Part shown: positions 5,501 through 56,748 of the stretch, in pieces
How positions within the stretch are numbered: position 1 is the first letter of the stretch
Layout of the letters: every line of letters begins with the position of its first letter
Origin: Cyanobacteria bacterium SIG28
GTDB lineage: Bacteria; Cyanobacteriota; Vampirovibrionia; Gastranaerophilales; Gastranaerophilaceae
Length of the DNA stretch: 64,000 nt
NCBI GenBank assembly: GCA_015152525.1
Contig: SUTU01000010.1
Coordinates: 30,447-94,446, forward strand
Direction: 5' to 3'
The notes under the pieces: generated by a model
What the model was told of the DNA's origin: nothing
Seen by the model: the letters and a program-made list of their open reading frames with translations, nothing else
The model's database searches: none
Translations under genes and position numbers: made by a program

Positions 5501-5562
5501 TTTGTAAAGATTTGTAAAATTTTTTTTAAAAAAACTAAAGATTTTCTAAAAAAAGCCGATAA
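5501..5562 (+). promoter_or_regulatory. Sigma-28-type promoter with two phased decamer boxes
   Basis: -35 TAAAGATT (5536-5543), 11-bp spacer, -10 GCCGATAA (5555-5562). Two tandem decamers, TTTGTAAAGA and TTTGTAAAAT, start 35 and 25 bp upstream of the -35. It serves the 324-aa gene downstream. Confidence 0.8.
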
Positions 5563-15546: not shown

Positions 15547-16134
15547 TTAATCGTTTTTACTATTTTTTATTTTCTTTTCCGCTTCTGCTTTTCTTTGATT
15601 TGATTCTTCGAATTTGTTTTTGAAGAATGTTGCCATCGGTGTTGCTATAAGCGGAACGATAATCCTTTTTGTAATAACTTGCATACCAACAAGTGCGGAA
15701 ATGATACTTAAACCGTTTTTAGCAGCAGCCTTATTCTTTTCCATCATGCTGACAAAATCTTCATACTTAATCTTGTTTGAAAGTTGTTTGTAGGTTTCTT
15801 TATAAATTTTTTCATTGAAATATTTAGGACCTAATTTGTTATCAAAAACTTTGTTAACAACTTTTGTAATAGCGATACCTACAATTGATTGTAAGCTTAC
15901 ATTCAAAATACCGTTTGCTAAGTCTAAGCCTGCAACGAATTCTCTTTGATCATCAGGGATTCGTTTGTTATTTCTGGATTGAGTAACGTAATATGCACAG
16001 TTTACGCCGTCTTTTGTTAAGTTAGAAACGGTTGCAATTGCTACAGCGGTTCCGGCTGCAGCATTAGGGTTAGTAAGCCATTTACCTGCTGCTGAGTTTA
16101 AAAATTTGTTTGTAAAATCAGGAATCTTAGTCAT
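15547..16134 (-). CDS. Hypothetical membrane-associated protein, partner of the upstream 428-aa gene
   Basis: 195 aa with two or three moderately hydrophobic segments (NAAAGTAVAIATVSNLT, LNVSLQSIVGIAITKVVN, GLSIISALVGMQVI) and a highly charged C-terminus (AEAEKKIKNSKND). The start overlaps the end of the preceding gene by 8 bp, so the two are translationally coupled and probably work together. Family not recognised. Confidence 0.7.
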   Translation of the reverse strand: MTKIPDFTNKFLNSAAGKWLTNPNAAAGTAVAIATVSNLTKDGVNCAYYVTQSRNNKRIPDDQREFVAGLDLANGILNVSLQSIVGIAITKVVNKVFDNKLGPKYFNEKIYKETYKQLSNKIKYEDFVSMMEKNKAAAKNGLSIISALVGMQVITKRIIVPLIATPMATFFKNKFEESNQRKAEAEKKIKNSKND

Positions 16135-17413
16135 CGTCTAATCCTCCCAATTCTTCCATTAAATCTTCCAAATCATCTATATCATCAACCTCGGTTTTGT
16201 CGGAAACAGTTTGTTCAATAGGTTGAAGGATTGGTTTAGGGTCGTTTCTATGAATCCATTTTGTAATAGATGGCATAATTTTTTCCATAACTCTCGGATA
16301 TGCCCAGTTTAATAATCCGCAAGAGAATGGCAAAGTAGCTAACGATACCAAAATACCCAGCTCATTTTTATATGTCTTAAATACTTTTTGGGCGTTTGCA
16401 GTATTTACTCTCAATAATTTCTTAACTTTTACGTTATGAAGTATTTCATCGTATGTTTTTCCAAGGTTTTTAACAGAACTAAACGGTTTAAGATTTTCGG
16501 ATTCTTCATAAAGCTTCATTGTTTCTAATTTATCTAAAATACTTTTTTGAATCTCTTTCTCTTTATCATTGTTGATTGCTTTTGCTGAAATAAATTCAAT
16601 TGCCTCGTCTATATTTGTATATTTTTTAGCTAATTCTCTAATTTCAAATTTTGCTTTGCTCTCGACCTCTAAAGCATTTTCAATATTTTTTATCGCTCGA
16701 TTTCTAATCTCTTCAGGCTGGATTTTTTTCTTCAGAAGTTTTTCGACTTTACGTTCCTTCATTCCGACGAACTCAGCCTCATGTGTCGCTCGATATTCTT
16801 TGCCAAGTTGTTTTCTGGCATCATTTAAAGCATCAATGTCTACTAAACTGTCTATTGTAACATCTTTGCCTTTCATTTCGTTACGCAATTTTGCAAGCAT
16901 TCTTTTTTCAGCAATGATTTGACGAGTTTCAACTTCAGCTTTAATTTGCTCTTTATCAAATTCAGGGTGTTCAAGTTTAACAATGCGTTTTAAATAACCT
17001 TTATCAGGCATTGCACGTAAATCTGCTCTGTCAAATCCGCCGGTGCTGGCTTTTTTAGCTATCCAATTATTATAAGCCTTGTTTACACTAATTTGAGCGG
17101 CAACTGCAATAATTGCGGATATTGGTTGACGCATTGCAGAATACCATTTGGTTTCAGGTGTTTCTTTTGAGAACGGATTTCCTGCAATAAAAATTGGCGC
17201 AACAACCGCTGTTCCGCCTGCAGTAACTAAAGTATTCATAATTTCGCCGTCATTTTTGCCTAAATATATTAAAGCATTTGGAAGTTTTTTCATGTGTTTG
17301 GCAACTTCTTCATTAAGCTTATTCACATTAGGCTTAGCTTGAAACGCAGGCTTACTTCCGGTTTCCGCCGCAATCTGATTATTTGCTACATTTGTTGACA
17401 AATAAACTTTCAT
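16127..17413 (-). CDS. Hypothetical membrane-associated protein with N-terminal FQA tag
   Basis: 428 aa. The N-terminus is MKVYLSTNVANNQ with KPAFQAKPN at 21-29, a variant of the short tag seen in other proteins here. Weak membrane segments lie near 65-80 (GGTAVVAPIFIAGNP) and 93-110 (QPISAIIAVAAQISVNKA), with another at about 350-370 (LGILVSLATLPFSCGLLNW). The middle (about 130-330) is strongly helical and charged. It ends in an Asp/Glu cluster. No enzyme motif is visible. It is the first gene of a two-gene unit with the 195-aa gene. Confidence 0.7.
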   Translation of the reverse strand: MKVYLSTNVANNQIAAETGSKPAFQAKPNVNKLNEEVAKHMKKLPNALIYLGKNDGEIMNTLVTAGGTAVVAPIFIAGNPFSKETPETKWYSAMRQPISAIIAVAAQISVNKAYNNWIAKKASTGGFDRADLRAMPDKGYLKRIVKLEHPEFDKEQIKAEVETRQIIAEKRMLAKLRNEMKGKDVTIDSLVDIDALNDARKQLGKEYRATHEAEFVGMKERKVEKLLKKKIQPEEIRNRAIKNIENALEVESKAKFEIRELAKKYTNIDEAIEFISAKAINNDKEKEIQKSILDKLETMKLYEESENLKPFSSVKNLGKTYDEILHNVKVKKLLRVNTANAQKVFKTYKNELGILVSLATLPFSCGLLNWAYPRVMEKIMPSITKWIHRNDPKPILQPIEQTVSDKTEVDDIDDLEDLMEELGGLDDD

Positions 17414-22477: not shown

Positions 22478-22529
22478 TTTGTAACAATCTTTCAAAATAG
22501 ATTAAAGTTTCAAGAAAATTTGCCGATAT
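22478..22529 (+). promoter_or_regulatory. Sigma-28-type promoter with decamer box
   Basis: TTTGTAACAA (22478-22487) lies 25 bp before -35 TAAAGTTT (22503-22510); 11-bp spacer; -10 GCCGATAT (22522-22529), a full match to the sigma-28 pattern. It overlaps the track's TTG start at 22520, which therefore cannot be used. Confidence 0.85.
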
Positions 22530-23934: not shown

Positions 23935-24199
23935 GGGTAAATGTAAGGGTTGGTTGGTGAAAACTACTAACTTCCGGTCATCTTTGAGGGCAAATGTAAG
24001 GGTTGGTTGGTGAAAACTACTAACTTCCAGTCATTATTGAGGGTAAATGTAAGGATTGGTTAGTGAAAACTACTAACTTCCGGTCATTATTGAGGGCAAA
24101 TGTAAGGGTTGGTTGGTGAAAACTACTAACTTCCGGTCATCTTTGAGGGTAAATGTAGGGGTTGGTTGGTGAAAACTACTAACTTTCAGTCATCTTTGA
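23935..24199. repeat. Five tandem copies of a 53-bp repeat
   Basis: Units at 23935, 23988, 24041, 24094 and 24147, each exactly 53 bp and over 90% alike, beginning GGG(T/C)AAATGTAAGG and containing CTACTAACTT. A decayed sixth unit begins at 24200. The unit length is not a multiple of three and there are no spacers, so it is neither coding nor CRISPR. Within each unit GTTGGT/ACTAAC can pair. A fragment of the same unit occurs near 40683-40730. Confidence 0.9.
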
Positions 24200-24268
24200 G
24201 GGCAAATAAAAAAGCTGGTCGGTAAGACTACAAGCCTAAATAGTACTGTTTTAAAATACTTCAGTATA

Positions 24269-24330
24269 CTTGTAACAGTTTGTAAACATTTGTTATAAAA
24301 TCCTAAAGTTTTTTCAAAAAATGCCGATAT
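24269..24330 (+). promoter_or_regulatory. Sigma-28-type promoter with three phased decamers
   Basis: CTTGTAACAG, TTTGTAAACA and TTTGTTATAA are head-to-tail decamers starting 35, 25 and 15 bp before -35 TAAAGTTT (24304-24311). 11-bp spacer; -10 GCCGATAT (24323-24330). The most complete example in the window. Confidence 0.85.
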
Positions 24331-24375
24331 ATATAATACGGCAGATAGATAGATTTTGGAAAGGACAGTCAGGAT

Positions 24376-24531
24376 ATGTTGAAGAAAATTTTAACCCCGT
24401 CGAGTAATACATTTAGCGGAGTTGAGTTTATATTAAGAGGAGCAAAGAAACGCCGAGCCATGGCGATTTCGAATGCTGTAGCCGTAAATGCCGAAACAGG
24501 CGTACAGGTGAAACTACAGGCTGTGAAGTAA
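24376..24531 (+). CDS. 51-aa small protein of the sigma-28-type regulon (absent from ORF track)
   Basis: An ATG at 24376 follows AAGGAC and opens a 51-codon frame ending TAA at 24529-24531. The protein begins MLKKILTPSSNTFSG, which fits the N-terminal tag (Phe at 13), then a basic patch (RGAKKRRAMA) and a polar valine-rich tail. The evidence for a gene is the unusually good sigma-28-type promoter 45 bp upstream and a strong terminator 40 bp downstream. Family unknown. Confidence 0.6.
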   Translation: MLKKILTPSSNTFSGVEFILRGAKKRRAMAISNAVAVNAETGVQVKLQAVK

Positions 24532-24570
24532 CGGGACTTGAACGTTAAGTAAGAATGGCTGAGAGTAATT

Positions 24571-24603
24571 AAAATAGCTGATATTTTATCAGCTATTTTT
24601 TTA
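24571..24603 (+). terminator. Rho-independent terminator of the 51-aa gene
   Basis: 13-bp stem AAAATAGCTGATA/TATCAGCTATTTT followed by T-run. Confidence 0.9.
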
Positions 24604-30783: not shown

Positions 30784-31629
30784 TTAACGTCCAAAAATTG
30801 TTGAAGAATGTGAATCTGTCCCACCGGTTTTAAGTATATCGAATTTTTCCATAAGAGGATCTAAAAGTTTTTTACCTTCATTCACATAATCCATATCCCA
30901 GTCGATATATTGGTAATTCCCTTCGACAGCTTCTATTTTATTTGTTTTAAGGAAATTAAAAAAATCTTCATTTAATTTATCAGGACAATAAATTGGATGT
31001 GCCCAAGATAAAATTCCGCCGGACGCAAGTATTGTTGGTATATCATCAATATTATTTTTTGAACTGAATCCGTGTGTCATTGGTTCAAGAGCTTTGTCAA
31101 AAGGGTTAAACCCTAAGCCGACAGCTTCAAATGCTGAATAAGGTTTCTTGTAGCCGTCAATTAGAAATTCACAACCTGCAACAAATCTAAAATTTTCATA
31201 TTCTTTTGGTTTTTGGCTTATTAAAGCTATGGTTTCTTTAACGCTTTTTATTTCATTGTGGTCTGTAATTGCAGCACTAAAAGGAGGGAGTTCATCTTTG
31301 GATTTTCCTTTATAAAACATTTTATCTGACCAAGCTTTACACATCTCTAAAAAGAGTTTTGGCGTCAATTTTCCGTCAGAAGCTCTGGTGTGTATATGAA
31401 AATTAGCTCTAAAATTATCACCTGGAACATATTGAGATGGGTTTAGTTTTGTAATTATTTCTCTTGTTTCAACCGGTCCGGCAATTGATTCTAAATCTTC
31501 TATTTTGCAACTCAAATTGAATGTATCTTTCAAACCTTTTTGGATAGATTTTTTATAAGCCAAATCTGTCGGATGAAGATTTCCTCTTTTAAAATTTTGT
31601 TGCGACGATGTAATAGATAGGATTTTCAT
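30784..31629 (-). CDS. PHP-domain phosphoesterase with N-terminal tag
   Basis: 281 aa. Metal-binding PHP signatures: NFHIHTRASDGKLTP, ITDHNEI, AGCEFLID, SWAHPIYCP, and the closing TGGTDSHSS. This predicts a di- or trinuclear metal phosphoesterase. The protein ends only a few residues after the last motif. Residues 1-15 (MKILSITSSQQNFKR) carry the Ser-rich/Phe-Lys tag and look like an add-on to the catalytic domain. Substrate unknown. Confidence 0.8.
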   Translation of the reverse strand: MKILSITSSQQNFKRGNLHPTDLAYKKSIQKGLKDTFNLSCKIEDLESIAGPVETREIITKLNPSQYVPGDNFRANFHIHTRASDGKLTPKLFLEMCKAWSDKMFYKGKSKDELPPFSAAITDHNEIKSVKETIALISQKPKEYENFRFVAGCEFLIDGYKKPYSAFEAVGLGFNPFDKALEPMTHGFSSKNNIDDIPTILASGGILSWAHPIYCPDKLNEDFFNFLKTNKIEAVEGNYQYIDWDMDYVNEGKKLLDPLMEKFDILKTGGTDSHSSTIFGR

Positions 31630-48382: not shown

Positions 48383-48444
48383 ATATCGGCATAATTTCCA
48401 AAAACTTTAACAATTTGGGTAAAATTGTTACAATTCGTTACAAA
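48383..48444 (-). promoter_or_regulatory. Sigma-28-type promoter with phased decamers
   Basis: Minus strand: TTTGTAACGA (48444-48435), ATTGTAACAA (48434-48425), -35 TAAAGTTT (48409-48402), 11-bp spacer, -10 GCCGATAT (48390-48383). The boxes start 35 and 25 bp upstream of the -35. Confidence 0.85.
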
Positions 48445-56686: not shown

Positions 56687-56748
56687 GTAACGGCATTTTT
56701 TTTAATAACTTTAGTAATTTTATGAATTTTGTAACAAATGTTTACAAA
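56687..56748 (-). promoter_or_regulatory. Sigma-28-type promoter with phased decamers
   Basis: Minus strand: TTTGTAAACA (56748-56739), TTTGTTACAA (56738-56729), -35 TAAAGTTA (56713-56706), 11-bp spacer, -10 GCCGTTAC (56694-56687). Box spacing 35 and 25 as at the other sites. Confidence 0.8.

Follow-up and report, generated by a model that had tools for sequence, protein, structure and literature searches.

Organisation of the locus

The locus occupies positions 24269-24603 of the window, by which we mean the whole stretch of 64,000 nucleotides that was analysed. Phased TGTAA boxes, a sigma-28 (FliA) promoter, a ribosome-binding site, a frame of 51 codons and a terminator are all contained within it, on the forward strand. 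The decamers CTTGTAACAG, TTTGTAAACA and TTTGTTATAA (24269-24298) form tandem, HLR1-like TGTAA(A/C) boxes with a period of 10 bp (24271-24296), namely TGTAAC at 24271-24276, TGTAAA at 24281-24286 and a degenerate third box, TGTTAT, at 24291-24296. A pattern scan, backed by the orthologous loci, places the FliA promoter TAAAGTTT-N11-GCCGATA at 24304-24329. The ribosome-binding site GGAAAGGA (24358-24365), which is kept in the genus-level alignment, is followed by the gene for the 51-aa protein (MLKKILTPSSNTFSGVEFILRGAKKRRAMAISNAVAVNAETGVQVKLQAVK; 24376-24531, ATG start, stop codon included). Inside the frame, codons 15-21 (24418-24438) are constrained at the nucleotide level, and a GAGAGT element (24561-24566) sits in the 3′ UTR directly before an intrinsic terminator (24571-24602). 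The stem of the latter, AAAATAGCTGATA/TATCAGCTATTTT, comprises 13 pairs around a TTT loop (24571-24599) and is succeeded by a T tail; it is visible in the fold, though it was not flagged by a consensus terminator scan. The decamers, ribosome-binding site, frame and 13-bp stem listed in a preliminary description of this DNA can all be read directly in the sequence, and the promoter that it called perfect is indeed exact. Between rsmI and the gene lies an intergenic tandem repeat (23935-24210) of approximately five copies of a 53-bp unit.

The 51-codon frame is a conserved protein gene

Orthologues of the frame were found by tblastn in 50 of 57 relatives. A profile search recovered it from 190 of the 289 Vampirovibrionia genomes sampled (Gastranaerophilales), spanning 41 of 89 genera and almost always in single copy. 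The matching records are mostly labelled Candidatus Gastranaerophilales or Melainabacteria, or are unlabelled gut metagenome genomes, with a few matches in records that look mislabelled. From these matches the window is assigned to a genome of the Gastranaerophilales (Melainabacteria, class Vampirovibrionia), gut relatives of cyanobacteria. Synonymous differences between members are saturated (median pS 0.71, against a pN of 0.21), and less diverged pairs give a dN/dS of approximately 0.11-0.13, values which indicate strong purifying selection on the frame. The preliminary description had proposed an unannotated short protein gene in the FliA regulon, and had named as the contrary outcome a small RNA whose promoter and terminator persist while the frame is lost. 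In relatives the promoter and terminator persist and the reading frame persists with them, and both the tblastn and the Ka/Ks comparisons that it had suggested come out in favour of a protein. That the frame encodes a protein is as firm as sequence permits.

Identity between members ranges from 51 to 94%, with a near-invariant core, VEFILRGAKKRR. Across 29 divergent members M1, N11, V16-F18, L20, G22-R27 and A30 are invariant, K24 being replaced by R or Q in a few further sequences. The strongly basic middle noted at the outset is borne out by R21, K24, K25, R26 and R27, which fall in the most conserved part of the protein, while conservation is among the lowest at residues 5-15. AlphaFold predicts a single helix over residues 14-41 with a confident core (pTM 0.42) and an N-terminus of low confidence. 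The N-terminal tag (F-x-G) that had been described as shared with other proteins is confined to one group, other lineages reading NVCDSV, NTSSCV or NINEGV at this position. Many proteins of the genome have at their start a brief variable segment that closes with (N/S)Fx(G/A) (30784-31629 and 16127-17413, both on the reverse strand, and several G000 loci), and these are possibly the tag that was meant.

No match to the protein was found among Pfam or NCBIfam families, PDB sequences and solved structures, or phages and plasmids; with the searches empty, a phage or plasmid origin and membership of a known family were dropped. Weak matches to bL27, DIM1 and uS7m (E 0.6-2.7) were taken as chance. 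No operon or neighbour is conserved around the gene across loci: many loci of the close group have rsmI upstream (40 in the cluster) but no distant locus does, and a conserved gene neighbourhood was therefore rejected. A programmed frameshift at the AAAAAA run was considered and set aside, since the downstream 0-frame stays conserved up to the stop codon.

A FliA promoter with upstream HLR1-like boxes

Exact copies of TAAAGTTT-N11-GCCGATA number nine in the 1.89-Mb genome, so that the promoter of the 51-aa gene, singled out earlier as the best of the regulon, ties with eight others. A genome scan allowing up to two mismatches returned 39 sites, whereas the reversed control gave 12; within the window, 10 occurrences were counted at up to three mismatches, 3.7 being expected. 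The window contains four more FliA-type promoters, at 5536-5561 and 22503-22528 and, on the reverse strand, 48384-48409 and 56688-56713; each has at least one TGTAAM box, and they precede uncharacterised proteins of 324, 168, 155 and 603 aa, respectively.

The promoter was scored in orthologous loci as TAAAG/CCGATA (11 bases). At least nine of these bases are present upstream of the 51-aa gene in 89/89 distinct loci and at least 10 in 85/89, a score reached by 0.45% of shuffles. It also precedes the gene in the flagellin-less genomes G059, G077, G094, G108, G112 and G157. The gap from TAAAG to CCGATA is 15 nt in 60/60 close loci and 16 nt in 13/14 flagellin-less loci, and the longer spacer (12 rather than 11 nt) recurs at 24 of 29 FliA-type sites of flagellin-less genomes (L179-L208). 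Membership of the FliA regulon is, like the coding status, as firm as can be had from sequence. The promoter is the same as that of the class-3 genes flgM and fliC in enterobacteria, and FliA is encoded here too (TIGR02479, above cut-off). Unlike flgM and fliC, however, the 51-aa gene is kept in flagellin-less genomes, where the spacer is usually 12 rather than 11 nt, and its product is unrelated to FlgM.

The decamers are tandem TGTAAM boxes that resemble the HLR1 consensus and recur, by pattern counts, across the FliA regulon. At 18 FliA-type sites of the window genome there are 29 such boxes (shuffle mean 1.2, maximum 7), mostly at -33/-23 from the start of the -35 element, and a pair with 10-bp spacing is present at 10 of the 18 sites against none in shuffles. 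Flagellin-less genomes have slightly relaxed boxes at these positions too (27 versus 3.8, maximum 11); upstream of the 51-aa gene itself, a box is kept in just 7/14 flagellin-less loci. HLR1 is the RpaB site of cyanobacteria and consists of two direct repeats (PMC9241938, PMC11633204). In photosynthetic cyanobacteria it reads as tandem (G/T)TTACA(T/A)(T/A) with 2-nt separation, of which WWTGTAAM-NN-WWTGTAAM is the reverse complement. Measured against this pattern, the repeat TTTGTAAA is exact and CTTGTAAC has one mismatch, in an outer W. As in RpaB-activated cyanobacterial genes, the boxes lie upstream of the core promoter. In contrast to the photosynthetic systems, the hosts here are non-photosynthetic, the boxes are paired with a FliA promoter and many sites are imperfect. 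RpaA, RpaB and NblS have been reported as retained in Melainabacteria, with no function assigned to them (PMC3787301, PMC5877343). We infer that RpaB may bind these boxes.

The gene is retained irrespective of flagellin and CsrA

The 190 carriers comprise 68 genomes with flagellin and 122 without, and 27 flagellated genomes lack the gene; gene and flagellin show no association (Fisher p = 0.15). CsrA tracks flagellin closely and is missing from 123 of the 190 carriers. The 51-aa gene is thus kept across the Gastranaerophilales regardless of flagellin or CsrA. This distribution contradicts the readings as an ordinary flagellar gene and as one linked to CsrA/FliW, and the idea that GGA motifs in the leader act as a CsrA sponge was dropped because of the 123 carriers without CsrA. 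FliA (TIGR02479) scored above cut-off in 44 of 45 panel genomes, including every carrier tested. All 20 flagellin-less carriers tested are among them, and each also encodes a full-length FHIPEP (FlhA-type export protein). The one exception, G056, has no FHIPEP, no FliA above cut-off and no 51-aa gene. Genus g33 has flagellin and FliA, yet yields weak or no matches to the protein.

A flagellar gene set without a filament

A closer inspection of one flagellin-less genome (G077) revealed a FHIPEP gene after those for FliE, FliF, an unassigned 340-aa protein and FliH, with two FlgF/G-type rod genes near fliA. Panel genomes bearing FHIPEP nearly always also carry a relative confined to its C-terminal part. 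This protein of approximately 490 aa, the cytoplasmic half alone (L212 8500-9975, L210 8724-10202), was present in almost every Gastranaerophilales genome tested. Flagellated members of the order encode a second FHIPEP of full length; its gene in the window genome is part of a fliPQR-flhB-flhA-type operon (fliPQR and flhB being named by sequence inspection).

Between 2 and 13 FliA promoters were found per flagellin-less genome scanned, against 0-1 in the control. They precede proteins starting MGxxASQARLL and several small proteins, and some proteins of the regulon, axial-like ones included, are common to these genomes and the window genome. A 42-49-aa member with the motif WPGxYSF is likewise shared by flagellated and flagellin-less genomes (L185, L200, L047). 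The MGxxASQARLL proteins are predicted to have long helices at both termini, modelled with confidence, and a middle part that is unreliable; with an overall pLDDT of 43 the model is too poor for a fold search, the terminal helices alone being usable. Their arrangement is that of flagellar axial proteins, a resemblance in predicted structure only. These proteins share 19-27% identity, against the 51-94% of the 51-aa protein.

Filament-less gene sets of Melainabacteria have been described as losses (Di Rienzi 2013, PMC3787301; Soo 2014, PMC4040986). The partial set of MEL.A1, in which filament and flagellin are absent and other flagellar genes kept, is matched here. Earlier work attributed such sets to genome reduction or loss. 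Here, FliA and its promoters are kept in many genera together with a conserved gene for a small protein, which suggests a maintained function.

Signals at the RNA level

In the genus-level set codons 15-21 are nearly fixed at the nucleotide level (ATA in 52/52, AGA in 51/52, GTT in 50/52, TTA in 49/52). Here 6-codon windows show a synonymous-constraint excess of 0.37-0.46, while no window of rsmI, taken from the same genomes as a control, exceeds 0.26; the remaining codons look like ordinary coding sequence. GAGAGT lies within 120 nt of the stop codon in 74/89 distinct loci (shuffle mean 3.2, maximum 9) and in 14/14 flagellin-less loci. The folding z-score in the window is -3.05. RNAalifold detected no conserved paired structure over the transcript and Rfam gave no match. 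An overlapping RNA signal is our leading guess for the constraint on codons 15-21, and the mRNA may also act as an RNA.

Discussion

More than 100 genomes keep the 51-aa gene without a flagellar filament gene, and it therefore probably serves a leftover, flagellum-like export machine. Service to a flagellum-derived, filament-less apparatus is the best-supported reading of these sequences, held here with slightly more confidence than doubt. FliA would have been kept to run this apparatus, of export or basal-body type, and an RpaB-type regulator would gate it at the HLR1-like boxes. Small, basic and helical, the 51-aa protein would be a core cytoplasmic accessory or regulator of the FliA programme. 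We propose that the one helix of this protein, which carries the near-invariant basic patch AKKRR, binds a conserved acidic partner or nucleic acid; candidates are FliA/RNA polymerase, a component of the export machinery, or an RNA, its own transcript among them.

Other readings differ in what the gene makes. A spurious frame over a non-coding small RNA would suit a short, isolated transcription unit, but is contradicted by amino acids conserved across families while synonymous sites are saturated and by a dN/dS of approximately 0.11-0.13, and its probability is negligible. It seems unlikely, though not strikingly so, that the protein is one of two products of a dual-function transcript, regulating as RNA through the codon 15-21 block and GAGAGT. 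An independent short unit with its own terminator, the folding z-score, a constraint well above that of rsmI and the recurrence of GAGAGT (74/89 loci, 3.2 expected) all point that way, whereas the lack of conserved pairing by RNAalifold and of an Rfam match, and the ordinary coding behaviour of the remaining frame, argue against it.

As to what the protein does, an ordinary structural or motility role in the flagellum would agree with the FliA promoter and with flagellated genus g1, but it is contradicted by the distribution (122/190 carriers without a flagellin gene, Fisher p = 0.15) and is very improbable. A FlgM-like anti-sigma factor feeding back on FliA would likewise be FliA-dependent, small and mostly helical, and the gene is always under a FliA promoter, with FliA present in the tested genomes. 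However, an hhalign probability of 0.1 against E. coli FlgM, the absence of a Pfam FlgM match, the basic helix and a length half that of FlgM leave this distinctly doubtful. The same low probability attaches to a small axial or secreted substrate with residues 1-13 as its export signal. Class-3-type expression, co-regulation with axial-like proteins and, in the model, an N-terminus of low confidence before one helix are in keeping with export; against it, conservation of residues 5-15 is among the lowest in the protein and the helix is strongly basic. Moreover, conservation is too high for a surface or secreted protein when set beside the co-regulated MGxxASQARLL proteins, so an intracellular, partner-binding role fits better than export.

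A more inclusive form of the filament-less apparatus reading is put forward tentatively, with the chances somewhat against it. In Gastranaerophilales the flagellum-derived, filament-less export machine would be an organelle that is conserved widely and regulated separately, with the ancestral cyanobacterial RpaB/HLR1 system and FliA switching it together; the 51-aa gene would be a core member whose mRNA bears an overlapping RNA signal. Two questions are made testable, namely why flagellar genes persist in so many gut Melainabacteria that have no filament and what RpaB-type regulators do in non-photosynthetic bacteria; the 51-aa gene, short, conserved and equipped with a clean promoter, offers a convenient handle on both. 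The gene also adds an uncharacterised family of small proteins, found in bacteria that inhabit the guts of ruminants, horses and other hosts. If the reading of an organelle under RpaB/HLR1 and FliA is true, RpaB would gain a role outside photosynthesis.
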